This document shows, piece after piece, positions 5,064 through 44,191 of a stretch of 45,547 nt of DNA. The position numbers were made by a program, and so were the translations under genes. The notes beneath the pieces are model-generated. The model did no database searches. It was not told the origin of the DNA and saw nothing but the letters and a program-made list of their open reading frames with translations. Positions within the stretch are counted from its first letter, which is position 1. Each line of letters starts with the position of its first letter. This stretch comes from OM182 bacterium MED-G24 (GTDB lineage Bacteria > Pseudomonadota > Gammaproteobacteria > Pseudomonadales > Azotimanducaceae). The stretch is from assembly GCA_002457275.1 (NCBI GenBank), contig NTKD01000008.1, forward strand, positions 1 to 45,547, given 5' to 3'.

Positions 5064-5540
5064 TTGGGACGAGTAGTTGGACCGACCCTGGGTCTGGGGT
5101 TGCTGCTGGTGGCGCTCTGGCTGATCCTGTCAGGCCACTTTGAGCCGTTGCTGTTGGCCATTGGTGCGTTTTCCGTTGGTGGCGTGGTTGCTCTTTGCCT
5201 TCGACTGGGAATTGTTGATCGTGAGGGACTGCCGTTTCACCTGGCCCCTCGGTTGATGGTCTACTGGTTGACGCTCGCGGTGAAAATCATCCGCGACAAC
5301 ATCAGCGTCGCATACACCATAGTCAGACCAAAGGGTCGAATCGAACCGGGCCTGGTGACAATTTCTCCAGAACTGACAACTGACCTGGGGCGCGCGATCT
5401 ACGCTAATGCCATTACGTTGACCCCCGGTACCTATACGCTTTCGATTGACCATGGCAGCCTCCTTGTCCATGGGTTGAGCAAGGCGGTTGCTCAGTCTGA
5501 AAAATCTGATGAGGCGTGGAGAGAGGTGCCGGAAGCATGA
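5064..5540 (+). CDS. mrpE: Mrp-type cation/proton antiporter subunit E
   Basis: This 158-residue membrane protein matches MrpE/MnhE, a small subunit of the multisubunit sodium(potassium)/proton antiporter. Two to three helices lie in residues 5-50, followed by the family's cytoplasmic part with VKIIRDNISVAYTIVRPKG and the C-terminal ITLTPGTYTLSI, which is typical of MnhE. The start is TTG at 5064: AAGGA at 5052-5056 is 7 bases upstream, and no ATG fits the family start better. It is the first gene of a tightly packed operon, its TGA overlapping the next ATG. MrpE is needed for full antiport in several bacteria but is not itself an ion channel subunit. Confidence 0.93.
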   Translation: MGRVVGPTLGLGLLLVALWLILSGHFEPLLLAIGAFSVGGVVALCLRLGIVDREGLPFHLAPRLMVYWLTLAVKIIRDNISVAYTIVRPKGRIEPGLVTISPELTTDLGRAIYANAITLTPGTYTLSIDHGSLLVHGLSKAVAQSEKSDEAWREVPEA

Positions 5541-5815
5541 TCGAGGTGGTTGCCGTGTTGCTGCTGTTCTCGATGGGCATCGTCCTGATCCGGGCGCTGC
5601 TTGGCCCTTCCTTGTTTGACCGCATTCTGGCGGTGAACGTGTTCAGCACGAAAACGGCATTGTTGATTGCCGTCTACGCATGGATTATGGACAGACCGGA
5701 CATCCTCGATATTGCGATTGTCTATGTGCTGATCAATTTCATCGCGGTGATCGCGTTTCTGAAGCTCATTGTGCGTGGCAACCTTGCTGATTCCTCTTCG
5801 GAACGGGTGCGATGA
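5537..5815 (+). CDS. mrpF: Mrp-type antiporter subunit F
   Basis: This 92-residue protein has three predicted helices and the MnhF/PhaF pattern: an opening hydrophobic helix, then IRALLGPSLFDRILAVNV and a final helix IAIVYVLINFIAVIAFLKL. It is an integral inner-membrane subunit of the antiporter complex. ATG 5537 overlaps the stop of the E gene (ATGA) and has GGAAG just upstream; a longer GTG start at 5516 exists but would only add a non-conserved leader. The length fits the usual 85-95 residues. Confidence 0.92.
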   Translation: MIEVVAVLLLFSMGIVLIRALLGPSLFDRILAVNVFSTKTALLIAVYAWIMDRPDILDIAIVYVLINFIAVIAFLKLIVRGNLADSSSERVR

Positions 5816-6117
5816 TCGCCTGGCTTGCGGATGGTCTGATGTTGGTGGGGGCGATCTTTTGCCTGCTTGGGAGTATCGGTATGCACCGGTTCCCTGACTT
5901 CTACACACGAGTTCATGCAGCGGGGATTACCGACACGCTGGGTACAATTCTTGTGCTGATCGGGCTCGCGATGCAGGCGGATCCAGGCGACTCGCTGAAG
6001 CTGTTGCTCGTTTTCGCCTTTTTGTTTTTTACCAGTCCTGTGGCTACACATTCCCTCTCGAATGCCGCCATTAAAAGCGGCTACAGACCCCGGCTGGGTA
6101 TCGACGCTGATGATTGA
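5812..6117 (+). CDS. mrpG: Mrp-type antiporter subunit G
   Basis: The 101-residue protein matches MnhG/PhaG: helix 1 LMLVGAIFCLLGSIGM, then the family motif RFPDFYTRVHAAGITDTLG at residues 26-44 and two further helices. It is a small membrane subunit of the complex. ATG 5812 overlaps the TGA of the F gene. The order E-F-G is the classical Mrp order, but here these three come first rather than last in the operon. Confidence 0.93.
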   Translation: MIAWLADGLMLVGAIFCLLGSIGMHRFPDFYTRVHAAGITDTLGTILVLIGLAMQADPGDSLKLLLVFAFLFFTSPVATHSLSNAAIKSGYRPRLGIDADD

Positions 6118-6700
6118 GCTGATCGCCAACAATGTGCTGTTGTTGTTCCTCGCCATCGTCGCGGTCGCTGTGGTGCGCGTACGTCAGCTACTGGTCAGTG
6201 TCATGTTGTTCGGGATTTACAGTTTGTTGTCGGCCGCCATCTTCGTGGTCATGCTGGCGGCTGACGTGGCGTTTACCGAGGCTGCGGTTGGTGCAGGCAT
6301 TGCCACGGTGCTGATGCTGGCGGCACTGGCACGGCTGCCGGGTGAGAAGGAAGAAGCCAGAGCGCGGGGGCAGTTCTGGCCTTTGGTGCTGGTCGTCGCA
6401 ACCGGGGCTTTGCTGATCTACGGCACAATAGACATGCCTGGATTTGGGAAAGCTGACAATGTTGCTCATCGCGGTGTAGCGATGCAGTACGTTGAGCGAG
6501 CACCAAAAGAGACCGGTATCCCAAATATGGTGACGTCCATTCTAGCGAGCTATCGGGGTCTTGATACGCTGGGAGAGGTACTGGTGATCTTTACTGCAGG
6601 TCTGGGGGTTTTGCTGGTGCTGGGCGGTGTCCATACAAAGATCGCGTCGCCACTGAGACCTGATGCCGTTGGCATCCGTGACGGCGAGCGAAGGGGGTAG
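6110..6700 (+). CDS. DUF4040 / MbhD-MbhE-like subunit (C-terminal module of MrpA as a separate protein)
   Basis: The 196-residue membrane protein corresponds to the region that follows the NuoL-like part in long MrpA proteins and to MbhD plus MbhE of membrane-bound hydrogenases. The first half carries the DUF4040 pattern (AVVRVRQLLVSVMLFGIYSL, then DVAFTEAAVGAGIATVLML, with the conserved acidic-rich helix). The second half has GIPNMVTSILASYRGLDTLGE, where NxVT.ILa.yRg.DTlGE is the MrpB/MbhE hallmark, and a last helix. ATG 6110 overlaps the stop of the G gene; an upstream ATG at 6062 would extend into MrpG and is unlikely. That this module is free rather than fused shows the split architecture. 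Confidence 0.9.
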   Translation: MIELIANNVLLLFLAIVAVAVVRVRQLLVSVMLFGIYSLLSAAIFVVMLAADVAFTEAAVGAGIATVLMLAALARLPGEKEEARARGQFWPLVLVVATGALLIYGTIDMPGFGKADNVAHRGVAMQYVERAPKETGIPNMVTSILASYRGLDTLGEVLVIFTAGLGVLLVLGGVHTKIASPLRPDAVGIRDGERRG

Positions 6701-6705
6701 TCCGG

Positions 6706-7128
6706 GTGACCGATTACCTGATCCTGCGGGTCACCGCAAAATTCCTGATCCCTATCATTCTACTGATGGGACTTTACGTTCAGTTCCATGGCGAGCTGGG
6801 GCCGGGTGGAGGTTTCCAGGCCGGAGTCATTTTCAGTGCCGGGTTGATTCTTTACGCGCTGGTGTTTGGTCTGGATCGACTGAGTGATGCCGTGCCCATC
6901 GTTGCGCTCAAGGTATTGTCGTCAGTCGGGGTATTGTTGTTCGCAGGCACGGGCATGATATCGGTCATCGTCGGCGGTGAATTCCTGGACTACAACCTGC
7001 TGGCGGAAGACCCGGTTGCAGGGCAACACTTGGGCATCTTCCTGGTTGAACTGGGCGTAGGTATCACTGTTGCCAGTACCATGCTGCTGATCTTTACGCT
7101 GTTTGCAGCTCAGAATGACCATGTCTGA
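6706..7128 (+). CDS. mrpB: Mrp-type antiporter subunit B
   Basis: The 140-residue protein has about four helices and the MnhB signature LYVQFHGELGPGGGFQAGV at residues 23-41, with the conserved G-P-G-G-G-F-Q motif. A second typical patch is DYNLLAEDPVAGQHLGI near residue 95. It starts with GTG at 6706, six bases after the previous stop, with a plausible GGGGGTAG upstream. It is a core membrane subunit of the antiporter. The gene runs slightly into the C gene. Confidence 0.93.
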   Translation: MTDYLILRVTAKFLIPIILLMGLYVQFHGELGPGGGFQAGVIFSAGLILYALVFGLDRLSDAVPIVALKVLSSVGVLLFAGTGMISVIVGGEFLDYNLLAEDPVAGQHLGIFLVELGVGITVASTMLLIFTLFAAQNDHV

Positions 7129-7498
7129 CGTTGTGCTTGAACACTACAACTACTGGGTGGTCATCGTCTTGATGATGATCGGGATGTATACGGTGATCAG
7201 CCGTGGTCATCTGCTGAAGAAGGTGATCGGTCTCAACATATTCCAGACGTCTGTCTTCATTATGTATATCAGTATTGGTTATGTTGAAGGCGGAACGGTC
7301 CCCATCGTGGAAGGAGGCGCGGCGTCGGATGTGGTGTATGCGAATCCTCTGCCACACGTACTGATTCTGACGGCGATTGTCGTGGGTGTGTCAACAACTG
7401 CGCTGGCGCTGGCGCTGATCATTCGCATCAGGGAAGCCTACGGCACGCTGGAGGAGTACGACATCCAGAAGCTGGATCAGGATGCTGAGAGTGAGTGA
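7121..7498 (+). CDS. mrpC: Mrp-type antiporter subunit C (NuoK-like)
   Basis: This 125-residue NuoK-like membrane protein has three helices, with MIGMYTVISRGHLLKKVIGL (MnhC motif) and ANPLPHVLILTAIVVGVSTTALALAL, the most conserved part of the family (PLPqaLvLTAIVIg). NuoK-type subunits take part in the proton pathway. ATG 7121 (MSDVVLEH) overlaps the stop of the B gene; ATG 7115 is an alternative. The C-terminus ends in an acidic tail that overlaps the start of the next gene by 17 bases. Confidence 0.92.
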   Translation: MSDVVLEHYNYWVVIVLMMIGMYTVISRGHLLKKVIGLNIFQTSVFIMYISIGYVEGGTVPIVEGGAASDVVYANPLPHVLILTAIVVGVSTTALALALIIRIREAYGTLEEYDIQKLDQDAESE

Positions 7499-8975
7499 CG
7501 GGGCACAGTTGATACTGATCATTCTGCTCCCTCTCGTGGTGGCGCCGATCTGTTATGTCCTGCGCTCCGTCCGCGTGGTATGGCTGTTGACCCTGGCTAC
7601 TGCCCTGAGCTGTTTTCTGATGTCGGTGGGACTGCTTCTAGTGGTTCTGGATACAGGTGGATTCAGCTATCACCTGGGTGGATGGGCGCCCCCGGTGGGA
7701 ATTGAGTATCGACTGGATCTGCTGTCGGCGTTTGTGTTGCTCGTGTTGACGGCTGTTTTTTTCGTCTGCCAGTTGTATGCGGGGTCTTTGACTGTCGCAT
7801 CGAGCAGCAAAGAAGTGCCACCAGCGATCGCTCCTGCCTTCTTTGCTGCGACGTTGTTATGCATTGCAGGGTTGATGGGCATCGTCGTCACCGGTGATGT
7901 CTTCAACCTGTTTGTCTTCCTTGAGATCTCGTCGCTGGCCACCTACGCAATGATCAGCCTGGGACGTGATCGACGAGCTCTGACGGCCGCATTCCAGTAC
8001 CTGGTGTTGGGGACGATCGGTGCAACGTTTTTCCTGATTGGGGTGGGGTTGCTTTACGCCGAAACGGGTACCCTGAATATGCGTGAGATGTCGATGCTGA
8101 TCCCTGATCTGGTAGACCGTCAGACCGCGTTTACCGGGATGACATTTGTCATCATTGGCCTCGCGTTGAAACTTGCCATTTTCCCGCTTCATCTCTGGCT
8201 CCCCAACGCTTATACTGAGGCGCCATCGGTGGTGACGGTTCTGCTTGCGGGGACTTCCACAAAAGTTGCCTTCTATGCACTTGCACGTATGGTTGTATCC
8301 GTTTTTGGCGTTGAGACGGTGGTGGAAACGCCCCTCCCCCGGCTGTTGCTTATCGTGGGAAGCCTCGCGGTTCTTTTCACTTCGGCACAGGCAATTCTTC
8401 AGGCCAACGTCAAGCGGCTGCTGGCTTATTCCAGTGTTGCGCAGATCGGCTACATGGTGATTGGCCTGGGTCTGCTGACCACGGAGGGGCTCGCGGCAGG
8501 ATTTGTGCATCTGTTCAACCATGCGCTGACCAAGACCGGGTTATTCATGGCCGTGGGGATCATGATGCTTGTTTCCCTGGACGCAAGGTTGTCGTCGCTT
8601 GCGGGTCTGGGGAGGCAGATGCCATGGACCAGTGCCGCGGTCGTCATTACCGCATTCTCTCTTGTCGGGATCCCGGGAACGGCAGGTTTCATCAGCAAGT
8701 GGGCGCTGCTGGACGCGGCGCTCGCCCAGGAAGCGTATCTGATTGCCGCCGTGGTTGTGGTGGGTTCCTTGCTTGCTTGCCTCTATCTTCTGAGACTGCT
8801 CGATGTCATGTATTTCCAGGTATCAGAAAAGCCACGTGAGTCGATCACGATTCCGATCCATATGGTCACTGCGCTGTGGCTGCTGGCGATTGCCTGCATC
8901 TGGTTTGGTCTGTCCACTGAATATTCACTGTCGGTGGCGAAGCTGGCGGCGGCATCGATGATGGAAAGTCTGTGA
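7482..8975 (+). CDS. mrpD: Mrp-type antiporter subunit D (first NuoL/M/N-like subunit)
   Basis: The 497-residue protein has about 14 helices and the Proton_antipo_M fold. Key channel residues are visible: the helix-5 Glu in NLFVFLEISSLATYAM (about residue 148), the helix-7 Lys in GLALKLAIFPLHLWLPNAY, the helix-8 Lys in STKVAFYAL, and the helix-12 Lys in HALTKTGLF. The ending helices fit MrpD. Start is ATG 7482 inside the end of the C gene; GTG 7491 is possible. It is one of three antiporter-like subunits in this operon and is closest to canonical MrpD. Confidence 0.92.
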   Translation: MLRVSDGAQLILIILLPLVVAPICYVLRSVRVVWLLTLATALSCFLMSVGLLLVVLDTGGFSYHLGGWAPPVGIEYRLDLLSAFVLLVLTAVFFVCQLYAGSLTVASSSKEVPPAIAPAFFAATLLCIAGLMGIVVTGDVFNLFVFLEISSLATYAMISLGRDRRALTAAFQYLVLGTIGATFFLIGVGLLYAETGTLNMREMSMLIPDLVDRQTAFTGMTFVIIGLALKLAIFPLHLWLPNAYTEAPSVVTVLLAGTSTKVAFYALARMVVSVFGVETVVETPLPRLLLIVGSLAVLFTSAQAILQANVKRLLAYSSVAQIGYMVIGLGLLTTEGLAAGFVHLFNHALTKTGLFMAVGIMMLVSLDARLSSLAGLGRQMPWTSAAVVITAFSLVGIPGTAGFISKWALLDAALAQEAYLIAAVVVVGSLLACLYLLRLLDVMYFQVSEKPRESITIPIHMVTALWLLAIACIWFGLSTEYSLSVAKLAAASMMESL

Positions 8976-10471
8976 TCTGGGTGGTGCTCATACCGCTTGT
9001 CGCTGCCGCACTCACTGCCGGGCTGTCGCCATTTCTGTCGGAGAGAAGTCGTACGCCGGAACGATTGGCCATTGGTGGCGCGTTCCTGCAGGCGCTGGTC
9101 ATGATCTACATTGTGATGGGCGTGGTTAGTGGTAACACCGATGTTCAAACCGGTCCGTGGGTGCTTGCTGAGCCCATTGCTGGGATCCCGATGGCGTTCC
9201 ATTTTGAGACCCTGTCGTTGTTGTTTGCCTTGGTCGCATCGATCCTGTGGTTTGCAACAACGCTATATGCCGCGGGCTACATGCGCGCGCATGGCGAAAC
9301 TCGCCTACCCCGGTTCTATTGCTTTCTGGGCGTGGCCATCAGCGCGACCCTGGCGCTCGCGTTCTCTGCGAACCTGTTTACGATGTTTGTGTTTTATGAA
9401 CTCCTGACGCTCTCGACCTGGCCCCTGGTGGTCCATACCGAGGACGAGACGGCCCGTCGAGGTGGGCGAACCTACCTCGGTATTCTGATCGCAACCTCCA
9501 TCGGGCTGTTTCTTCCCGCGATCGTCTGGGTGTATCAACTTTCGGGTACGGTGGCGTTTACTTCGGGTGGGGTCATACCCGCCGAGACGTCTGGCGCGGT
9601 ATTATCGGTGCTACTGCTGATGTTCGTTATCGGCGTTGGTAAGAGCGCTGTGATGCCCGCACACCGTTGGTTGCCTGCTGCCATGGTGGCGCCTACACCC
9701 GTCAGCGCGTTTCTGCACGCAGTTGCGGTGGTCAAGGCAGGAGTATTCGCGCTGACCAAAATTGTGGTCTACATTTTCGGGTTTTCAGTCTCATCGGAAC
9801 TGCTGGCGCACTGGGTGATCTGGTTGCCTGCGATCACGATTCTTCTGGCATCGCTTGTTGCCATGCGTGAGGACAATCTCAAACGAAGGCTCGCGTATTC
9901 GACCATAAGTCAGCTCAGTTACATTGTACTGGCGGTATTGTTGTTCTCACCTGAGGGAACACTGGCCGCGGGTATGCACATCACCATGCACGCGTTTGCA
10001 AAGATCACCCTGTTTTTTGCGGCGGGTGCCATCCTGATCGCGTCCCATTGCACGCGGGTCTCTGAACTCGATGGTATGGGTCGGCGAATGCCTCTCGTGT
10101 TTATTTGTCTTGCGATCGCAAGCCTGAGCGTCGTGGGTCTGCCACCGACCGGAGGGCTTTGGAGCAAGTGGTTTCTGGGTCAGTCGATTGTCACCTCTGA
10201 CTACCCTGGTGCCTGGGTGTTGCTGGGCGTCATCCTGGTCAGTGCGTTGTTGAACAGCATTTATCTGCTGGGCATTGCTGTTCGTGCCTTCGTCAGACCT
10301 TTCGCGGGGAATACCACCATTAAGGCGGTTCCGCGGACCATGCAGGCTGCGATGCTGATTGCCACCGGCGCCACGCTGCTGCTCTTCCTGCTGCCCATGC
10401 CTCTCTACGAATGGTTGAGCACACTCTCTTGGAGCACACTCTCAGAAACGATACCGGCAGGTCGGCGTTGA
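8972..10471 (+). CDS. Second antiporter-like subunit, NuoL/MrpA N-terminal type
   Basis: This 499-residue, roughly 14-helix protein belongs to the same family but carries the NuoL/MrpA-type run HRWLPAAMVAPTPVSAFLHA followed by VVKAGVFALTKIV. The helix-5 Glu (FVFYELLTLSTWP), the helix-7 Lys (GVGKSAVMPAHRW) and the helix-12 Lys (HAFAKITLFF) are all kept. It probably plays the role of the N-terminal NuoL-like part of MrpA, whose C-terminal part is encoded upstream at 6110-6700. GTG 8972 overlaps the TGA of the previous gene (GTGA). It lacks the long C-terminal lateral helix of NuoL. Confidence 0.9.
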   Translation: MIWVVLIPLVAAALTAGLSPFLSERSRTPERLAIGGAFLQALVMIYIVMGVVSGNTDVQTGPWVLAEPIAGIPMAFHFETLSLLFALVASILWFATTLYAAGYMRAHGETRLPRFYCFLGVAISATLALAFSANLFTMFVFYELLTLSTWPLVVHTEDETARRGGRTYLGILIATSIGLFLPAIVWVYQLSGTVAFTSGGVIPAETSGAVLSVLLLMFVIGVGKSAVMPAHRWLPAAMVAPTPVSAFLHAVAVVKAGVFALTKIVVYIFGFSVSSELLAHWVIWLPAITILLASLVAMREDNLKRRLAYSTISQLSYIVLAVLLFSPEGTLAAGMHITMHAFAKITLFFAAGAILIASHCTRVSELDGMGRRMPLVFICLAIASLSVVGLPPTGGLWSKWFLGQSIVTSDYPGAWVLLGVILVSALLNSIYLLGIAVRAFVRPFAGNTTIKAVPRTMQAAMLIATGATLLLFLLPMPLYEWLSTLSWSTLSETIPAGRR

Positions 10472-10486
10472 TGATGGGTGAACGCA

Positions 10487-10846
10487 ATGAGTAAAGTGAC
10501 CGTACCACCCGCTGTAAAGCGTCTGTTGTATGTGTTCTATGGCCTGGCAGCCTGTCTTGTCCTGGCAGACTGGCTCATCCATCGGCACGTGAGTCATCCG
10601 GCGGAATCCGTGTTCGCGTTTTATCCCCTGTTCGGTTTCGTGGCCTGCGTCTTACTGGTTTTTGCGGCAGCGGCAATGCGTCGCATCGTGATGCGACCAC
10701 CTGCCTATTACGAAGGTGCAGAGCCTGCAGACGAGAAGTCTGAGGATGTCGCATTCAGCGAAAGTGACGATGTTGATGGCCAGATTTTAGAGGGTGAGGC
10801 GCAGAATCGTCGCGTTGATCCATCCCCCGGCGAGGATGGACCATGA
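10487..10846 (+). CDS. Small two-helix membrane protein inside the Mrp-like operon
   Basis: The 119-residue protein has two strong helices, YVFYGLAACLVLADWLI (about residues 14-30) and FYPLFGFVACVLLVFAAAA (about 43-61), joined by a His-containing loop. An acidic, probably disordered tail rich in Glu and Asp follows. It is not a standard Mrp subunit and I do not recognise a named family. It lies between two antiporter-like genes, its stop overlapping the next ATG (ATGATGG), so it is very likely a subunit or assembly factor of this complex. ATG 10487 was chosen; a GTG at 10478 would add three residues. Confidence 0.82.
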   Translation: MSKVTVPPAVKRLLYVFYGLAACLVLADWLIHRHVSHPAESVFAFYPLFGFVACVLLVFAAAAMRRIVMRPPAYYEGAEPADEKSEDVAFSESDDVDGQILEGEAQNRRVDPSPGEDGP

Positions 10847-12600
10847 TGGAGAGTCAGATCATTCTCGCGTCGCTCGATTGGATCGCTCAGTTTCGGGTGC
10901 TCGCGGTTGTGCCCCCTGCGGTGCTCTATTTCCTGGCAGCGTTGCTGGTTCTCTGGAGCGGTCATCGGGTAGGCCGTGTCGTCATGCTGCTGATGCCTGT
11001 TCTTGGCATGTTCCAGCTCGCGGCCATGTTTGCGATCAAACCGAATGTGACACTCTCCCTGCTGGATATGTCTCTCGTGGTTCTGAGAGTCGACAGCTTG
11101 TCACTGTTGTTCGCGCTACTGTTCAACATTGCTGCGCTGATCGGTGTGATTTATGCACTACACGTACGTGATCGGCTCCAGTCGGTCAGTGCGATGTGTT
11201 ACGTGGGTAGTGCCTTAGGCGCTGTTTTTGCCGGTGACCTGCTGACGCTCTTCATCTTCTGGGAGTTGCTCGCGCTGTCGTCGGTGGGTTTCATCTGGGC
11301 CAGACGACGACCGGAGTCGATGGCGGCCGGTATGCGGTATCTGCTCGTTCAGATTGTCTCTGGACTACTGCTGCTTGCTGGTGCTCTGTACCTGTATGAG
11401 CAGACAGGGTCTCTCGTTTTTAATCATATTGGGCTTGATGGTCCGGCTGGCTGGTTGATCCTGGTCGCATTTGGCATCAAGTGTGGTTTCCCGATGTTCC
11501 ATGGTTGGATCACGGAGGCATACCCGGCAGCGACGGAAGCCGGTGCTGTCTTTATGGCGGCCATCACGACCAAAGTGGCCGTTTATGCCCTGGCACGAGG
11601 GTTTCAGGGTGAGGAACTGCTTGTATACGTGGGTGTGACGATGACCTGCTTTCCGATTTTCTATGCGGTGATTGAAAACGATCTGCGTCGGGTACTGGCC
11701 TATAGCATGATCAACCAGCTGGGTTTCATGGTGTGTGGTATCGGCGTGGGTACAACACTTGCGGTCAATGGTGCCATTGCACACGCGTTCAACGATGTGA
11801 TTTTCAAAGGTCTGCTATTCATGTCGATGGGCGCCGTATTGTTGCAGACAGGCCGAATCAATGCGTCCGAACTCGGTGGACTGTATCGGACGATGCCGAA
11901 GACGACGGTACTCTGTATTGTCGGCGCCATGTCCATCTCGGCTTTTCCGCTTTTCTCCGGATTTGTGAGCAAAGCTATGATTGTGACCGCGGTCCTGGAG
12001 GAGCATTATGAATGGGTCTGGCTGGCGCTTCTGTTTGCCTCCGCCGGTGTTTTCCATCATGCGGGAATCAAGATTCCCTACTTCGCATTTTTTGCACACG
12101 ACAGTGGCCTGAGACCGACAGAGCCGCCAACCAACATGCTGATCGCCATGACGATTTCTGCGGTGCTTTGTATAGGGATCGGTGTTTTCCCGTTGGTGCT
12201 TTATCAGATGTTGCCGTTCGATATGGTGTACTCACCGTACGATGCGACGCATGTACTCGCCCAGTTGCAGCTGCTCTGGTTTTCAGCGCTGGCGTTTGCG
12301 TGGTTGAACCTGCGGGGCTGGTATCCCCCGGAGATTCGTTCGGTGAACCTGGATGTGGACTGGCTGTTTCGAAAATTGGTGCCAGGGGTAGTGTCCGTGA
12401 CGATGCCGCATCTTGGTAGGATTGGTGAGCATTTGACATTTGGGATAGGTCAGGGATTACAGCGAATGGGCGGGTTCCTCGCGAGAGGTCTGGTGGTGCT
12501 TGTCGGCCAGGCGACTTCCATTCGCCTGATGGCGATGTATCTTGTGATCGTACTAATGTTGTACCTGTTCCTCGATGGCTTGATGATGTTGGTCGGTTAG
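10843..12600 (+). CDS. Third antiporter-like subunit (NuoL/M/N-like, MrpD paralogue)
   Basis: This 585-residue Proton_antipo_M protein has the helix-5 Glu (LLTLFIFWELLALSSVGF), the helix-7 Lys in FGIKCGFPMFHGWITEAYP, TTKVAVYALAR, YSMINQLGFM, and a channel motif HAFNDVIFKGLLFM in the second half. After the core it has an extra stretch, from about residue 470, with a linker GWYPPEIRSVNLDVDWLFRK, an amphipathic region and a last helix, a layout seen in D-type subunits of respiratory-like complexes. ATG 10843 overlaps the preceding stop. With it the complex has three possible proton or cation channels. Only a 5-base gap separates its stop from the following nitrilase remnant. Confidence 0.9.
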   Translation: MMESQIILASLDWIAQFRVLAVVPPAVLYFLAALLVLWSGHRVGRVVMLLMPVLGMFQLAAMFAIKPNVTLSLLDMSLVVLRVDSLSLLFALLFNIAALIGVIYALHVRDRLQSVSAMCYVGSALGAVFAGDLLTLFIFWELLALSSVGFIWARRRPESMAAGMRYLLVQIVSGLLLLAGALYLYEQTGSLVFNHIGLDGPAGWLILVAFGIKCGFPMFHGWITEAYPAATEAGAVFMAAITTKVAVYALARGFQGEELLVYVGVTMTCFPIFYAVIENDLRRVLAYSMINQLGFMVCGIGVGTTLAVNGAIAHAFNDVIFKGLLFMSMGAVLLQTGRINASELGGLYRTMPKTTVLCIVGAMSISAFPLFSGFVSKAMIVTAVLEEHYEWVWLALLFASAGVFHHAGIKIPYFAFFAHDSGLRPTEPPTNMLIAMTISAVLCIGIGVFPLVLYQMLPFDMVYSPYDATHVLAQLQLLWFSALAFAWLNLRGWYPPEIRSVNLDVDWLFRKLVPGVVSVTMPHLGRIGEHLTFGIGQGLQRMGGFLARGLVVLVGQATSIRLMAMYLVIVLMLYLFLDGLMMLVG

Positions 12601-16423: not shown

Positions 16424-17307
16424 ATGCGGAGGAACACTCTCTATCTCGTGGATGTCACGTATAAGCTCTTCCGCTGGTTCAAGGCGACGCCATCACACAC
16501 CAATATCCAGGGTCGAGAAGTGGATGCAATCCGGGGATTGCTGCAGACGCTGGTGTCGTCACTCAAGACAGATGATCTGACGCACGTGGCCGTCGCCTTT
16601 GATGCCATGGTCAGTCGGACAGCGGCCAATGACCGCTCGGAATCGGCCCGCCTCCGAAGCCAGTATCCGCTGGCTCTGGATGTTGTGCGAGCGTTGGGGA
16701 TGACGTTGTGGCCGATGACCCGGGTTCAGGCGGATGATGTGATTGCGAGTGCCGCATTGCAGTATGCCGATCATGTGGAACGGATTGTCATCTTTTCCAG
16801 CGACCAGGATTTCTGTCAGTGTTTGTATGACAAAGTAAGCCTGTGGAACCGTAGTCGCCGGACGGTGCAAACCGCCGAAGATGTCCGGTCTCGCTACGGC
16901 GTCCAACCCGCCCGTTTCGCTGAATACCTGGCACTTGTCGGAGACGGGTCTGACGGTTTGCCTGGGGTACCGGGTTTGGTCAGAAGACGACGGCGGCCTT
17001 GCTGAATCGCTATCCGAATGTTGAAGCGATCATTATTGCCACAGGAGAATGGTCTGACGACATTCGTGGCGGTAGCTCGATGGCATCGATGCTGCTCGAA
17101 CGTCGCGATGAAGCCATTTTGTATCGTGACCTGTCGATTCTGCGCACCGATGTACCCTTGCATCATCACATGGACGATCTCCGGTGGCGTGAACTCAACA
17201 GGAGTTTGCTACTCACGCTGACTCAGCTGATCGAGGACGTTTCGGTCTTGCCGCGGCTGAACCGATGGCCGAGGCTCGATGAGCCGTTTGCGCTTTCAGG
17301 TGGATGA
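16424..17307 (+). pseudogene. Stand-alone 5'-3' exonuclease (PolI N-terminal / FEN family), one frameshift
   Basis: The protein resembles the 5' nuclease domain of DNA polymerase I: LYLVDVTYKLFRWF at the start, AFDAMVSRTAANDR, then QADDVIASAAL and SSDQDFCQCL (metal-binding Asp residues), and the helix-hairpin DNA-binding motif GDGSDGLPGVPGL. Directly after this motif the expected GQKTTAALLNRYPNVE lies in the next frame, because one T appears missing in the TTT at 16975-16977. The second part runs from there to 17307, giving a total of about 294 residues. ATG 16424 fits the family start. A single homopolymer shift means this could be a sequencing error and an intact gene. The gap before it has a small palindrome CTGTCACGACAG at 16360-16371. 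Confidence 0.82.
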
Positions 17308-17377
17308 TGTATGCCCGCGATCACAATGCGAACAGGTGTACAATGCGCCAAAATCCGAAGAGCAACGGGAAATGATG

Positions 17378-18562
17378 ATGTCTCGACCAGTGTATGAATC
17401 TACTGTGGTGCGCGTAGAGGCTACGGGTGAACATTATTCCTACCTGAACGCGCCCAATGGTGATTGGCTTTGCGTCAATGAAGCAGGTGAGCTCACCACC
17501 CAGGGCTATGTGAACAATGCCGCGATCTGGCAGGTCTCTGGATCCAGATTTCAGCATGCTGTTGCCAACGTCGCTCTGAACGCAACCAGTACCGCGATTG
17601 AACAGACGACCGAACTCACCTTGGATGGCGCTCCTGTCGGTGACGATGGCAGTACCGGAGAAGGCGCCACGTTTATGGTCAACCACGGTCCGGAACGATT
17701 GCCTTCAGAGTATCTGGCGGAGCTGCGTGAGCAGGGTTGGGTATCGCTGACCTGCATCCTGTCGCCCAGCGTCATTGATGATCTTCAACGGATTGGATGC
17801 GTGGATGATTATGAGAATGAGAAGCCAGAACGTGTGAATCCCATCGTCCACCCAGCCATGACGAAGGTGACGGTGGAGCCGATCTCGATGTGGTTGATGC
17901 GTGAGTATATGCAAACGCGCGACGTCAAGCTGGGGCATCCCCCTGGCGTCTCGGCGTTGACCCGTGACGATGGCAAACGGGAAGTGCAGGGTTGGCACAC
18001 CGATTTCCCTTATCTGTGGGGCACTGGGGATCGCGTGCCGGTGCCGTCTGGCGACCTGGTGCTGGGCATGCAACGAAACACCTGTATCTCCGAGTTTACG
18101 CAGGAGAACGGCGCGACTCTCTTCAAACTGGGTAGTCATGCCTCGAACGCAGCGCCACCTGATGAGTGGGGTATCACCAATCACACGATCCGCAGGGGTT
18201 ACCGGGCTGAACACGGCTTGCCTTATGGTGGTCCGGATACCGACGTGATTGTGGCGCCACCTGGTTCAATGGTCCTCTATGACTCCCGAACCTGGCACCG
18301 GGCTGGAGTGAACAATACGGATCGAAAACGGGGTGCGATGATTCAGGCTTTTATCCCCGGTTTCATCGTTCCATTCATGGACACGTCGAACATGTATAAG
18401 ACGTTCCTCGCAAGTGATGCACCGCATCAGTTGACTGCGCGTGAGTGCAAGGAGCTCGATAACCTGATGGTGCACAAGATCATGGGGCCAGCCGGGCTGT
18501 TTGCCATCACCACGGATGATGAACTGACTCAGCGGGTCCGGGACCAGATGGCTTCGGCCTGA
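17378..18562 (+). CDS. Two-domain phytanoyl-CoA dioxygenase (PhyH) family protein
   Basis: The 394-residue protein carries a C-terminal non-haem iron, 2-oxoglutarate dioxygenase fold. Iron ligands are probably His 207 and Asp 209 (GWHTDFPY) and His 307 (DSRTWHRAGVNNTDRKRG), with the nearby basic residues for 2-oxoglutarate. Residues 1-100 form an extra, beta-rich domain of unknown kind (HYSYLNAPNGDWLCVNEAGE); it recalls a beta-trefoil or fascin repeat, which is only an impression. The PhyH part begins around LPSEYLAELREQGWV. Of three adjacent ATGs (17372, 17375, 17378), the last is best placed from GGGAA. The substrate is unknown; PhyH enzymes hydroxylate many small molecules and natural products. 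Confidence 0.88.
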   Translation: MSRPVYESTVVRVEATGEHYSYLNAPNGDWLCVNEAGELTTQGYVNNAAIWQVSGSRFQHAVANVALNATSTAIEQTTELTLDGAPVGDDGSTGEGATFMVNHGPERLPSEYLAELREQGWVSLTCILSPSVIDDLQRIGCVDDYENEKPERVNPIVHPAMTKVTVEPISMWLMREYMQTRDVKLGHPPGVSALTRDDGKREVQGWHTDFPYLWGTGDRVPVPSGDLVLGMQRNTCISEFTQENGATLFKLGSHASNAAPPDEWGITNHTIRRGYRAEHGLPYGGPDTDVIVAPPGSMVLYDSRTWHRAGVNNTDRKRGAMIQAFIPGFIVPFMDTSNMYKTFLASDAPHQLTARECKELDNLMVHKIMGPAGLFAITTDDELTQRVRDQMASA

Positions 18563-27625: not shown

Positions 27626-29173
27626 CTATTGCGTCAGTGACATCGGGCTGAGACGGGTTCGATCGTAGAAGTGCTCAATCATCATATTCAGTTTATCTTC
27701 GAGAACTGGAGCATAGCGATCAGTGTCATCGAACACGTACCAGTGACCCTGCTGGTCAAGCGCGGGCCACGTCGGTCCAGGTGCACCGGTCCTAACAAAT
27801 GACAGCCAGTGTGTGCGTAGTCGCATTGCCATGGCCCGAGTCGTTTCATCCGGCAGGAGAGGTCCGGATGCGAGGTAGAAACCATCGGTGCCATGACGGG
27901 TACCGGGCTGATCTTCGTCCGCGTGGTCGATATAGTAACGCCATGCAGGCGTATGGATCATCGCCATGGCTTCGGTCAGTACACGTGCAGACAGCAGGTA
28001 GCGGTGATCACCGAACATGCGTCGAATACCTTGCGTTGCGTTGACCTCAAAATCGTTCTGGTAGTGTTCTGCGACTTCCCTGAACGCAGACCCCCAGTAT
28101 CGCTGATAGTCCTCCGGTGAGATCCCGGAGGCGGGCATCACCGAACCTTCAAAGCTGTTTCCTCCGCTGATGTAGGGCACGGGTTGTTGTTGTCCCCGTA
28201 CGAAACGAATACCGGGCTCTTCGGGAATCGATTGTCCGTCAACGATCGGGAGTTGAAATCCTTGAAGAGCAGCGACCAGGCTCTGTCCGTCCAGGCGCCT
28301 CAGGGTACGAGGTGTTTGTCTTTCCTCACTGATTGAGGAGACCAGCACCCTGGAAAGAGTTTCAGCTCGCTGCGCAGGTTCCTGTGACATACCTCGAACA
28401 CTGGCGGGAGGAGCGTGACGTGAACGCGGCAATGCCCACGTCGCGTAGCCGCTCTGTGAGATAGCGCCGTGAAACAGATTTTTCGTATCCGGGCTCGCCA
28501 TCAGCAGATTGACCGCCATGCCCCCCGCTGATATACCAAAGATCGTCACCTTGTTGGGGTCGCCACCGAACGCGGCGATGTTGTCCTGGATCCATTGCAG
28601 GGCAAGCTGGATATCCAACAGGCCGAAGTTGGCGTCCTGCTGTCTTAGTGCTTGATGTGCGAAGAAGCCCAACGGACCGAGACGGTAGTTCATGGTCACG
28701 TAGACGATGTCCTCACCAGCAAGGTGTGCCCTTGCGTTGCCGGAGCCAGCCCGGAAGCCGCCACCATGGATGCTCACCATCACAGGCCGTTGTCCACTGA
28801 TTGAAGGCGTCCAGACATTCAGGAACAGGCAGTCCTCGCTCAGATCGGTAGCTGGTTGTCGGGTGCTCTGCAGGCAACGATCACCATAATCGGTGGCAGT
28901 CAGCTGTCGTTTTGAGCGAAATGCTCTGGGGGGCTGCCAACGATGTTGGCCCGTTGGAGGTTGCGCATAGCGGATACCCTTGAAACTGACTATGCCACCT
29001 GGCGCCTGGGTTCCGGAAAGTAGTCCACTGGTCGTGACGAGCATGTCAGCACCTGCCATCGTTAGGGCGCAGCTCATAAGAAGTACGGACAACAGCATAG
29101 TGCGAGCGATGAAAGAAGGTGTTGAACGGCTCACGCGATTTCCGATGCTGATATTTGAGGGGGCACTATGCAT
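27626..29173 (-). CDS. Type-B carboxylesterase, secreted
   Basis: About 515 residues from ATG 29173, with an N-terminal signal-like helix (TMLLSVLLMSCALTMAGA) preceded by Arg, so probably exported; the Cys in it could be a lipobox but is not ideal. The alpha/beta-hydrolase motifs are GGFRAGS (oxyanion hole HGGGF), EDCLFLNVW near residue 120, and the nucleophile elbow GISAGG (usual GESAGG) with Ser about 215. The His is probably in GTRHGTDGF and the acid in GGNSFEGS. Possible starts are TTG 29233, ATG 29212, ATG 29173 and ATG 29098. The gene diverges from the PhyH gene, whose start is 128 bases away from the chosen start. It cleaves esters of unknown acids or alcohols. Confidence 0.9.
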   Translation of the reverse strand: MHSAPSNISIGNRVSRSTPSFIARTMLLSVLLMSCALTMAGADMLVTTSGLLSGTQAPGGIVSFKGIRYAQPPTGQHRWQPPRAFRSKRQLTATDYGDRCLQSTRQPATDLSEDCLFLNVWTPSISGQRPVMVSIHGGGFRAGSGNARAHLAGEDIVYVTMNYRLGPLGFFAHQALRQQDANFGLLDIQLALQWIQDNIAAFGGDPNKVTIFGISAGGMAVNLLMASPDTKNLFHGAISQSGYATWALPRSRHAPPASVRGMSQEPAQRAETLSRVLVSSISEERQTPRTLRRLDGQSLVAALQGFQLPIVDGQSIPEEPGIRFVRGQQQPVPYISGGNSFEGSVMPASGISPEDYQRYWGSAFREVAEHYQNDFEVNATQGIRRMFGDHRYLLSARVLTEAMAMIHTPAWRYYIDHADEDQPGTRHGTDGFYLASGPLLPDETTRAMAMRLRTHWLSFVRTGAPGPTWPALDQQGHWYVFDDTDRYAPVLEDKLNMMIEHFYDRTRLSPMSLTQ

Positions 29174-29300
29174 GAGCGGAACAGGTTTGTCTGCTTGCCG
29201 ACAACACGCCATAGACTGTTGGGTATGGCTCAATCGCTATCGTATACCGCTGCTGCCCATGCTATTTTCTGGGCCCTTGCTGTTTCCGCACTCTGAATTT

Positions 29301-30113
29301 GTGACACAGGCTCCAAACTACCAGCTCAGTCAGTCAGACGTGGATCAGTTCCACGAAGACGGCTTCCTCATGATCCGGGACTATTTTTCACGGTCTGAGA
29401 TGGAGCGCTTTTCCGATATCGCACGTTGTGATCGTGAGATGCTCCTGAATTTTCCGTATACATCACTGGATGCGGAGGGAAGGCCCACCAAACTTTTTGT
29501 CTGGTCAAAGCTCCGTAGTGACATCTACAGCGCCTACGCGCGCCATGAGGCTTTGGTTGAGCCATGGGATCAGCTCCTGGGAGGTCAGGTCACATACTTC
29601 CACCACAAGATGATGATGAAAGAGCCGAACACACTGGGTGCATGGGAGTGGCATCAGGACTATGGCTACTACTACGAACATTATCTGCGACCCGACATGG
29701 GCGGCGTTATGATAACAATCGATGAGGCGTCCAAAACCAACGGATGTCTCGAGGTGCTTCGAGGGTCGCATCGATTCGGAAGGGTTGATCACTCACGCCT
29801 GGGACATCAGAGTGAGTATGAGACAGCGGCAGATCCTGATCGCGTGAAGGTGCTTCTGGCATGTTGCGAGCGTGTCTATTGTGAGATGACGCCTGGTACG
29901 GTGTTGTTCTTCCACGCCAACCTGTTACATCATTCAGGGCCCAATCTGAGCAACTCACCCAGGTGGGCGCTGATCAGCAACTATACGAGAACAGACAACC
30001 CTCCCTTTGCGGCATCCCCCGGGTGGGGCGAGAACTTTGAGACGCTGTCGGCGGATCAGGTTCAAGAAGCCGTCAAGGCTTACGCCCTTCGCCAGACCGA
30101 GCGAGATCGTTAG
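29301..30113 (+). CDS. Phytanoyl-CoA dioxygenase (PhyH) family protein
   Basis: The 270-residue 2-oxoglutarate/Fe(II) dioxygenase has iron ligands His 118 and Asp 120 (WEWHQDYGYYY) and His 210 (LHHSGPN), with the Arg of SNSPRWAL as probable 2-oxoglutarate contact. The N-terminus reads QLSQSDVDQFHEDGFLMIRDYF, the classical PhyH start. GTG 29301 puts it eleven residues before that motif; a longer ATG 29259 cannot be excluded and the frame stays open far upstream only because it lies antisense to the esterase. Its 3' end overlaps the convergent TPP-enzyme gene by four bases. Confidence 0.9.
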   Translation: MTQAPNYQLSQSDVDQFHEDGFLMIRDYFSRSEMERFSDIARCDREMLLNFPYTSLDAEGRPTKLFVWSKLRSDIYSAYARHEALVEPWDQLLGGQVTYFHHKMMMKEPNTLGAWEWHQDYGYYYEHYLRPDMGGVMITIDEASKTNGCLEVLRGSHRFGRVDHSRLGHQSEYETAADPDRVKVLLACCERVYCEMTPGTVLFFHANLLHHSGPNLSNSPRWALISNYTRTDNPPFAASPGWGENFETLSADQVQEAVKAYALRQTERDR

Positions 30114-42607: not shown

Positions 42608-43414
42608 ATGGCGAACCATCAACTCACAGACGAAGAGGTCAAGTTCTTCAACGAACACGGATACCTGCGACTAAAGTCGGTGTTTTCACCCGACGAGGTC
42701 GATGAGATGGCAGAGGAACTTGACTGGCAGATCGACAACTGGGCCGGAACGGGTCCGGGTTGGCGCGGTGAGTGGCGACAGGTCTATATGGATGAAGACA
42801 CGGAATGTCGCTCCCAACTGACCGCGCTTCACGATTTGCATCGGTATTCCACCGCCTGGTGTGATGCTGTTACCAACAAACGACTGGCGGGATCGATCGC
42901 GGACCTGTTGGGTGACAACGTGGAGCTTCACCACACAACCCTGCATGCGAAACCACCAGAAACCGGGCATCCCTTTCCAATGCATCAGGATTGGGCCTTC
43001 TACCGACACGAAGATGGTCGTTACATCGATTGTCTGGTTCACCTGGATGACACATCCGACGAAAATGGCTGTATTCGGTTTCTGGATGGCTCGCATAAGG
43101 GTGGGGCACGGCGACACGTCACGCGGTTCGCAGATGGATCTCATTGCGAGCCTCATCTTCCCACGAATGAATACTCACTCGATGACACCATCCCCGTCCC
43201 CGCGAACCGGGGTGACGTGGTGATCTTTCACCTCCACATGATTCATGGCTCTCGTATCAATCAGACTGACAGAATTCGCAGGCTGGTGCGTGTGGGCTAC
43301 CGTGATCCAGAGAACGCGCAGTTGGGTGGCCAATCCAAGACGAGACCAGGGCTCATGGTTTGGGGGCGTAGGCCTCGAGCGGAAGGACAGATGCCGTTTT
43401 CGACAGAGATCTGA
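42608..43414 (+). CDS. Phytanoyl-CoA dioxygenase (PhyH) family protein
   Basis: The 268-residue Fe(II)/2-oxoglutarate dioxygenase has the PhyH start LTDEEVKFFNEHGYLRLKSVF, iron ligands His 126 and Asp 128 (FPMHQDWAF) and His 213 (IHGSRINQTDRIRR, with Arg for 2-oxoglutarate). The C-terminal MVWGRRPRAEGQMPF is shared with a subset of marine PhyH proteins in my memory, not verified. Directly followed by another PhyH gene. It likely hydroxylates an organic substrate in the same pathway as the dehydrogenase downstream. Confidence 0.9.
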   Translation: MANHQLTDEEVKFFNEHGYLRLKSVFSPDEVDEMAEELDWQIDNWAGTGPGWRGEWRQVYMDEDTECRSQLTALHDLHRYSTAWCDAVTNKRLAGSIADLLGDNVELHHTTLHAKPPETGHPFPMHQDWAFYRHEDGRYIDCLVHLDDTSDENGCIRFLDGSHKGGARRHVTRFADGSHCEPHLPTNEYSLDDTIPVPANRGDVVIFHLHMIHGSRINQTDRIRRLVRVGYRDPENAQLGGQSKTRPGLMVWGRRPRAEGQMPFSTEI

Positions 43415-43417
43415 GTG

Positions 43418-44191
43418 ATGAACAAATCGATCGCTGAGGCCATCACCGAAGTACAGAGAGACGGCTACACCGTCATCGAAGATTTTCTCACCGATGACCA
43501 GCTTCGAGACTCAGAAGAAGCGTTGGTGAAAATCGAGTCCCAGGTTGAGTTTGGTCGCGATATCTTCAGTGGCACACGCACAAAACGTTCATCGAACCTG
43601 GTGGGGTTGACCCGTGCCTTTGACAACGTGGTTATTGACGAACGGATGCTGGAGCTGGTGCGTGGCGTTCTGGGTCCTGACATCCAGTTGTCGATCAGCG
43701 CGATGATCAAGATCTTTCCCGGTGAGACACATCAGCCGCTCCACCAGGATGATGGCCTGTGGCCGGCACCCCGTCCTCATCAGCCATTTGTGCTTAACAC
43801 CATGTACGCCATTGATGATTTCACAGCGGAAAATGGTGGCACCACACTCGTACCGGGGTCACATCAATCGACTGATCCGGTCGACCAGGAGGCGGAACGT
43901 ATCGCGGTGTCGATGCCGCGAGGTGCAGTGCTTGCCTGGGATGGGGCGACGTGGCACGGGGGCGGCGCAAGTGTTGATGACGCGGCTGAACGATGCGGGC
44001 TCAACATCAACTACAACGCGGGATGGCTGAAACAACAGGAAAACCAATTTGTCTGTATTCCACAGGAAGAAGTGCCGTCACTGCCGAAACAGTTGCAACG
44101 GTTGCTGGGATATCAAACGAGTTTTGGTGGGATTCTTGGCGGAGCGCATGGGCGTGATCCATTGGACGTCCTAGTGGAGCGGGTTTCATGA
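43418..44191 (+). CDS. Phytanoyl-CoA dioxygenase (PhyH) family protein
   Basis: The 257-residue protein has ligands His 109 and Asp 111 (PLHQDDGLWP) and His 180 (ATWHGGGASVDD), with the Arg of DDAAERCGLNI. Compared with its neighbour, it has the more classical helix-rich start EAITEVQRDGYTVIEDFL. ATG 43418 follows the previous stop by three bases (TGAGTGATG); a GTG at 43415 adds one residue. The two are only distantly similar, so they may act on successive positions of the same substrate or form a complex. Confidence 0.9.
   Translation: MNKSIAEAITEVQRDGYTVIEDFLTDDQLRDSEEALVKIESQVEFGRDIFSGTRTKRSSNLVGLTRAFDNVVIDERMLELVRGVLGPDIQLSISAMIKIFPGETHQPLHQDDGLWPAPRPHQPFVLNTMYAIDDFTAENGGTTLVPGSHQSTDPVDQEAERIAVSMPRGAVLAWDGATWHGGGASVDDAAERCGLNINYNAGWLKQQENQFVCIPQEEVPSLPKQLQRLLGYQTSFGGILGGAHGRDPLDVLVERVS

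Follow-up and report, generated by a model that had tools for sequence, protein, structure and literature searches.

It is not yet settled how the ion ratio of Mrp, MBH, MBS and complex I depends on the number of their antiporter-like subunits. The question is raised anew by an operon at positions 5064-12600 (+ strand) of contig NTKD01000008.1 from OM182 bacterium MED-G24 (assembly GCA_002457275.1), which encodes three such subunits, as compared with two in canonical Mrp. We wondered what kind of complex this operon specifies and whether it forms a class of its own. The window, meaning the whole stretch of DNA analysed, spans 45,547 nucleotides. Sequence comparison indicates that the operon is a real, intact and widely conserved variant of group 3 Mrp and not a new class, because the group 3 definition fits and extra mrpA/D-like genes have already been noted in one Nitrospira. 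It probably encodes a Na+(K+)/H+ antiporter driven by the proton-motive force, with three proton-channel subunits in a row. The most interesting part is a cassette of the last two antiporter subunits, D2 and D3, with a small protein, x, between them, which is shared with rhizobial complex I.

A ten-gene operon with a split MrpA

Ten open reading frames (ORFs), adjacent or overlapping and all open, follow one another on the + strand in the order E-F-G-MbhDE-B-C-D1-D2-x-D3, and the operon is intact. Pfam matches named them MNHE, MrpF, MrpG, MbhD plus MbhE, MnhB, MrpC/NuoK-like and three Proton_antipo_M proteins (D1, D2 and D3). The genes are as follows (TM, transmembrane helix).

5064..5540, +: MrpE/MnhE subunit, 158 aa; PF01899 91.6 bits; best solved relative MBS 6u8y_A, 64.5 bits; start codon (TTG 5064) uncertain
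5516..5815, +: MrpF subunit, 99 aa; PF04066 53.7 bits
5812..6117, +: MrpG subunit, 101 aa; PF03334 96.8 bits
6062..6700, +: MbhDE, with MbhD and MbhE in one protein (the MrpA C-terminal part, TM17-21); PF13244 61.7 bits, PF20501 29.0 bits; 7qru_A residues 637-794, 49.8 bits; start uncertain, 6062 or 6107
6706..7128, +: MrpB subunit, 140 aa; PF04039 102.4 bits; NF009162 179.3 bits (cut-off 120)
7103..7498, +: MrpC subunit, NuoK-like, 131 aa; PF00420 77.8 bits; NF005621 145.2 bits (cut-off 126); MBS 6u8y_G 86.8 bits
7482..8975, +: D1, MrpD/NuoN/MbhH-type antiporter subunit, 497 aa; PF00361 216.6 bits; MBS 6u8y_H 241 bits; clade 99, starred
8972..10471, +: D2, second antiporter subunit, NuoL/MrpA-side clade, without C-terminal extension, 499 aa; PF00361 176.8 bits, PF00662 26.2 bits; clade 100, starred
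10478..10846, +: x, small protein, two helices predicted (11-35, 48-71), C-terminal tail acidic, 122 aa; no Pfam or NCBIfam match
10843..12600, +: D3, third antiporter subunit, NuoL-like lateral helix predicted, 585 aa; NF009310 686 bits (cut-off 564); clade 100, starred

The first-pass annotation had recognized an Mrp/Mbh-like operon with a split MrpA, and this holds: each module gave a Pfam match above cut-off, and MbhDE and the NuoL-like subunits are separate ORFs. Its gene series, given as E-F-G-DUF4040-B-C-D-L-small-D, also stands with two corrections. The 'DUF4040' protein comprises the entire C-terminal part of MrpA, MbhD as well as MbhE, and the final subunit is not MrpD-like, as the tree described below puts both D2 and D3 on the NuoL/MrpA side. 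D3 passes an existing NCBIfam model, NF009310 'Na(+)/H(+) antiporter subunit D'. A promoter scan returned fewer sites than shuffled sequences did.

Group 3 Mrp systems are those without mrpA and with one or several mrpD-like genes (PMC8415708; here and below, papers with a PMC number are cited from the parts of their text that were at hand). The window operon has this composition: full-length mrpA is absent, E, F, G, B, C, the MrpA C-terminal part and D are all present, and channel and Na+-path residues are kept except at the position of E687. Groups 1 and 2 have a single MrpA with NuoL-like and MbhD/E-like parts, which are separate ORFs here. MBH and MBS carry a NiFe-hydrogenase-like large subunit in or near the operon, and no PF00346 protein was found in the 85%-complete genome. 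A membrane arm of complex I would come with NuoD and NuoL genes, and that genome gave no match to TIGR01962 or PF00346 and none to TIGR01974 at E 1e-100.

All three antiporter-like subunits carry the four channel residues, TM5 Glu and TM7, TM8 and TM12 Lys (E148, K230, K261 and K406 in D1; E143, K224, K255 and K399 in D2; E141, K213, K244 and K377 in D3), which bears out the earlier claim of three subunits with channel Glu and Lys. Across the family all four are conserved in every D1 (84/84) and D2 (94/94). Among D3 rows, the TM8 and TM12 Lys are invariant (103/103) and the TM5 Glu is missing from one (102/103), and the TM7 Lys is present in 93 of 99 Mrp-type rows (Asn in the other 6) and in none of the four rhizobial complex I rows (Asn in all 4). 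The ion path was compared with the essential residues of B. pseudofirmus Mrp (PMC5703873), most of which are kept in alignments with the window proteins. An Arg and a Glu of MbhDE align with MrpA R773 and E780, an Asp-Arg pair of MrpF aligns with D32-R33 of B. pseudofirmus MrpF, and the Pro of TSPVA in MrpG aligns with TAPVA of 7qru_G. MrpE keeps its Thr-Pro and MrpB its GPGGGF, and in the DPLPQ motif of MrpC the Gln is replaced by His (positions counted by hand).

To place the three large subunits, we built a tree of 110 rows with a quick method, with SH-aLRT values as the only support and five long branches flagged. D1, D2 and D3 each formed one clade (99, 100 and 100, starred). D1 grouped with MrpD, NuoN and MbhH, and D2 and D3 were two separate clades on the NuoL/MrpA side, with deep forks at 80-85 only. 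We considered D3 as a recent duplicate of D1 and rejected this, as the two lie in separate clades. The third subunit might also have come from an unrelated complex, but D1, D2 and D3 occur together in 76 of 81 loci. By sequence, the best solved relative of D2 is E. coli NuoL and that of D3 is MbhH, with MrpA close.

The survey also brought up two other clusters. One (L168, 369-6281, G398:C3) is an Mrp-like series, E-F-G-MbhDE-MbhDE/B-C-D-D', in which there are two antiporter subunits and the D protein clusters with MbsH of MBS in the tree. The other (L167, 3702-13083, G398:C12) packs four antiporter-like subunits into 10 kb, and in the tree two or three of these lie close to NuoM, on long branches.

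Three candidate channels in a row

A sample of 398 genomes of the phylum contained 21 with D3 above the NF009310 cut-off, and among 58 relatives a D3-type match of at least 400 bits was seen in 14 (one partial), a same-genus genome being one of the 14. Scanning genome contigs gave at least 568 relatives, of which the best 80 were kept, so that the named survey loci lean towards close relatives. Together with 20 loci from the phylum sample and the window itself this made 101 loci with D3; gene order was counted in the 81 with at least 7 kb upstream of D3, leaving out 20 of the 80 scan loci, which had less. All ten genes stood in the order E-F-G-MbhDE-B-C-D1-D2-x-D3 in 76 of the 81 (75/80 without the window), and MbhDE and B were fused in one reading frame in 31 of these 76. 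Among 11 further regions, taken from the family and order to which the window belongs, 10 showed the ten genes in this order and the eleventh is cut by a contig end. By their recorded labels, complete operons occur in Pseudomonadota, Thermodesulfobacteriota, Planctomycetota, Gemmatimonadota, Campylobacterota, Verrucomicrobiota and Nitrospirota, many of them metagenome-assembled genomes with unverified binning. The layout is thus conserved beyond chance, and it is little described. Next to its ten-gene operon, one locus (L126) carries another, divergent set of Mrp-like genes on the other strand.

In the antiporter that we propose, the ten proteins would form one complex. E, F, G, B and MbhDE would provide the Na+ (or K+) path, and MbhDE together with C would join this path to D1, then D2, then D3. 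D3 would sit at the far end with its lateral helix running back along the row, as that of NuoL does in complex I, and with x packed on it. Entry of H+ via D1, D2 and D3 would drive Na+ out, at a ratio of H+ per Na+ that could exceed that of a two-channel Mrp. The suggestion of the first-pass annotation that an extra channel changes the ion stoichiometry is in this sense plausible. Pairwise distances over 80 complete operons, with shared ancestry uncontrolled, correlated at 0.84 for D1-MbhDE, 0.83 for D1-C, 0.81 for D1-D2, 0.63 for D2-D3 and 0.51 for D1-D3, and x correlated at 0.77 with D3 and at 0.28-0.36 with the core. These values would be expected for a row MbhDE/C-D1-D2-D3 with x at D3.

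The predicted structure of D3 (mean pLDDT 88.9) shows a 14-helix fold followed by a long helix (505-556) and a final TM helix (560-584), both of lower confidence. Its top structural matches were NuoL chains (E. coli NuoL 9q8i_L, Z 43.5, root-mean-square deviation (rmsd) 7.0, 523 residues aligned), closely followed by MrpA (7d3u_A, Z 41.6, rmsd 2.8, 499 aligned) and MBS (6u8y_X, Z 41.6, rmsd 4.0, 496 aligned). Taking as the lateral-helix stretch the residues between the last two hydrophobic segments in hydropathy, we obtained medians of 51 in two-channel MrpA (10 of 16 measured), 76 in Mrp-type D3 (94), 85 in three-channel NuoL (22 of 30 measured) and 93 in rhizobial complex I D3 (4). The D3 stretch is thus ∼25 residues longer than that of MrpA. 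The lateral helix reportedly lengthens with the number of pumps that it spans, from one in MBH through two in MBS to three in complex I (PMC7684303), and a complex I with one more pump is reported to have a 26-residue insert (PMC9040806). Together, these data suggest that D3 is nearer the three-pump class, but the rule linking helix length to pump number is loose.

Several points weigh against a row of three channels. The D3 stretch is 9 residues shorter than that of NuoL, a significant difference, and the C-terminal tail is 106-127 residues long in 5 of 99 Mrp-type D3 proteins, as against 75-87 in the other 94. The two-antiporter cluster L168 has a 77-residue stretch. As the five long-tailed proteins and L168 contradict it, we rejected helix length as proof of a pump count. 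The essential Glu at MrpA E687 is Gly in MbhDE and, as in MbhD, a Glu lies four residues before it (positions counted by hand). D3 correlates with core genes at only 0.42-0.51, D2-x-D3 occurs without the Mrp core in two loci (L046, 11631-13316 region; L113, 8133-11626), and we found no structure or assay of any member.

The resemblance to MBH and MBS raises the possibility that the operon supplies the membrane arm to a redox-driven pump whose electron-transfer subunits are encoded elsewhere. The split-MrpA order is that of MBH and MBS, E, F, C and D1 have MBS 6u8y as best solved relative, and D2-x-D3 belongs to a complex I operon in rhizobia. Nevertheless, the best solved relative of MbhDE, G and B is an Mrp, and the 2.09-Mb genome, at 85% completeness, contains no PF00346 large subunit. 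It likewise gave no match to TIGR01962 (NuoD) or NF009288, and none to TIGR01974 at E 1e-100. Its only three PF00361 matches all lie within this operon, and nqrB is above cut-off. With PF00361 confined to the operon, nqrB present and neither NuoD nor PF00346 found, the operon appears to be the sole Mrp of an organism that apparently relies on NQR rather than complex I, in a genome 85% complete.

We next consider the neighbours, surveyed in 3.5-kb flanks of 98 loci (upstream only for the 80 with E found) by clustering 602 flanking frames. Response regulators and kinases, variously placed, made up the largest cluster, which reached 18 of 98 loci; the next reached 9, and no hydrogenase- or dehydrogenase-like family recurred among the 14 clusters shown. 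The operon is also present in NQR-bearing and complex-I-bearing genomes alike. Among the D3-positive genomes of the window's class in the 398-genome sample, nqrB was above cut-off in 7/7 and NuoD was without a match in 6/7, five of the seven being one family; Mrp-type genomes outside the class had NuoD in 11/11 and nqrB above cut-off in 0/11. The link between NQR and the operon is weak. Overall, a redox-driven pump seems very unlikely. The earlier suggestion that the extra channel couples to a different module is thus unsupported for the operon itself, which has no neighbour family in more than 18/98 loci and no PF00346 partner in its genome, and survives for D2-x-D3, which sits in the rhizobial complex I operon.

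It is highly improbable, in our view, that the transported ion or substrate is other than Na+ or K+, such as Ca2+ or something handled by a DAB-like partner. Exchange of Ca2+ for H+ has been reported for an Mrp of Thermomicrobium roseum (PMC5703873), but the window proteins retain the residues of the Na+ path in E, F, G, B and MbhE, and no DUF2309/DabA-like partner was found among the recurring neighbours.

The D2-x-D3 cassette and rhizobial complex I

Five of the 81 loci departed from the common order. Two are those with D2-x-D3 and no Mrp core in the stretch examined (L046 and L113). In the other three, which are rhizobial (L036-L038), D2-x-D3 lies between a NuoJ/NuoK-like start and NuoM-NuoN. 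The annotation of a S. meliloti plasmid gives the same series as nuoJ, nuoK, 'monovalent cation/H+ antiporter subunit D family protein', an 84-aa 'hypothetical protein', 'Na(+)/H(+) antiporter subunit D', nuoM, nuoN and then nuoA-G. This arrangement is that of 'green complex I', in which NuoL is replaced by two MrpD-like subunits (PMC9040806). This rhizobial complex I is reportedly up-regulated in symbiosis (PMC7415380). Of the two coreless loci, the L113 cassette adjoins genes resembling a TRAP transporter and the L046 cassette adjoins flagellar genes.

Protein x lies between D2 and D3 in the surveyed loci and represents a conserved family with two predicted helices that no Pfam or NCBIfam model fits. 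Across 40 members there was one marginal Pfam match and one marginal NCBIfam match, both to unrelated families. The model of the window protein (pLDDT 71, pTM 0.38) places its helices at 11-35 and 48-71 with low confidence; the best match in the PDB had E 0.76, and a plasmid search likewise led nowhere. A profile of 96 non-rhizobial x proteins scored four rhizobial proteins at 54.6-63.6 bits, as against 8.4 for the best of 1000 shuffled controls; three of the four had been part of the model used to collect the members of this profile. In the initial single-sequence search, the window x scored those three at 18-23 bits.

Rhizobial D2 groups with a D2 from a Nitrospirota Mrp operon (95, starred), inside Mrp-type D2 if the clade is rooted on other families, and rhizobial D3 has no settled position at the base of the D3 clade. 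The TM7 Asn is carried by rhizobial D3 (L036-L038 included) and by at least five Mrp-type D3 proteins (L048, L049, L124, L125 and L126), and D3 of L124-L126 combines it with a long C-terminal tail. As rhizobial D2 groups with an Mrp-type D2 and the TM7 Asn is common to rhizobial and some Mrp-type D3, transfer of the cassette from Mrp to complex I is the likelier direction. The longer rhizobial D3 tail may reflect ancestry rather than adaptation, because Mrp-type L124 and L125 are also long-tailed with the TM7 Asn and the D2 of L125 groups with rhizobial D2.

These data bring up a further reading of the operon, in which D2-x-D3 is a semi-independent pump pair that shares an operon with a one-antiporter Mrp core (E-F-G-MbhDE-B-C-D1) and docks on this core or on other machines. 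The core has the same order as the stand-alone P. furiosus Mrp, EFGBB'CD (PMC8415708), the cassette stands by itself in two loci (L046 and L113) and within complex I in others (L036-L038 and S. meliloti), and the D3-x correlation (0.77) exceeds that of either with the core (0.28-0.51). Such a pair is nonetheless unlikely, given the D1-D2 correlation of 0.81 and the joint occurrence of all ten genes in 76/81 loci. A core up to D1 without D2-x-D3 was seen in none of the survey loci, but this is not a fair test because the set was chosen by D3.

Within the three-channel antiporter that we prefer, the chances seem to us even that D2-x-D3 is a portable two-pump cassette: it would top a one-pump Mrp core to give a three-channel antiporter, and would have moved whole, with x, into rhizobial complex I, replacing NuoL to give a four-pump enzyme. 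If so, x would be an overlooked subunit of both machines and the cassette one route of pump addition in the complex I superfamily. The shared cassette ties the antiporter to rhizobial complex I and draws attention to a small protein in it that carries no annotation beyond 'hypothetical'. A three-channel stand-alone antiporter without a redox module, and with many near relatives in bacteria that can be cultured, Kangiella aquimarina and Ferrimonas balearica among them, would also permit a direct test of H+ per Na+.

Elsewhere in the window, two ORFs in different frames (165-668 and 858-1577) resemble by eye pieces of one serine hydrolase (beta-lactamase-like), possibly reflecting a frameshift or assembly error. 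The ORFs at 17279-18562, 28980-30113 and 42608-44191 are, as judged by eye from their translations, presumably related to phytanoyl-CoA dioxygenases.

Relation to known systems

Whether this operon type already had a name is only partly settled by the literature: the group 3 definition (PMC8415708) and one sighting in 'Ca. Nitrospira alkalitolerans' (PMC7784846) cover part of it. In that organism two NuoM/NuoL-like genes follow mrpD and were read by the authors as extra mrpA/D-like genes; the portion of the description consulted makes no mention of x, its relatives or a complex I link. In the text at hand of open PMC papers, with most subscription literature outside this scope, neither the ten-gene type nor x nor the shared D2-x-D3 cassette was found described.

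Among known systems, the stand-alone P. furiosus Mrp (EFGBB'CD) shares the gene order as far as D1, combines MbhD and MbhE in a single protein and lacks a full-length MrpA (PMC8415708), and to its one antiporter-like subunit the window operon adds D2, x and D3. The group 3 Mrp of 'Ca. Nitrospira alkalitolerans' likewise has two extra genes after mrpD, a likeness drawn from its description and from one organism (PMC7784846). Canonical group 1/2 Mrp, as in Bacillus and Pseudomonas, shares the seven functional modules and the channel residues but has one long MrpA and two channel subunits, and the window genome has no match to the group 2 MrpA model NF009288. In archaeal MBS (6U8Y) and MBH (6CFW), MbhD/E, B, C and D-type genes are separate and follow one another as they do here, and MBS has two antiporter-like subunits of which the second bears a lateral helix (PMC7684303); both complexes carry a redox module, whereas none was found for the window operon. 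Finally, two MrpD-like subunits replace NuoL in rhizobial 'green complex I' and in Complex_I_3 of 'Ca. Manganitrophaceae' (PMC9040806), the latter likened by description. Unlike in the window operon, these two subunits belong to a redox complex alongside NuoM and NuoN, and those of 'green complex I' correspond to the D2-x-D3 of the window family.

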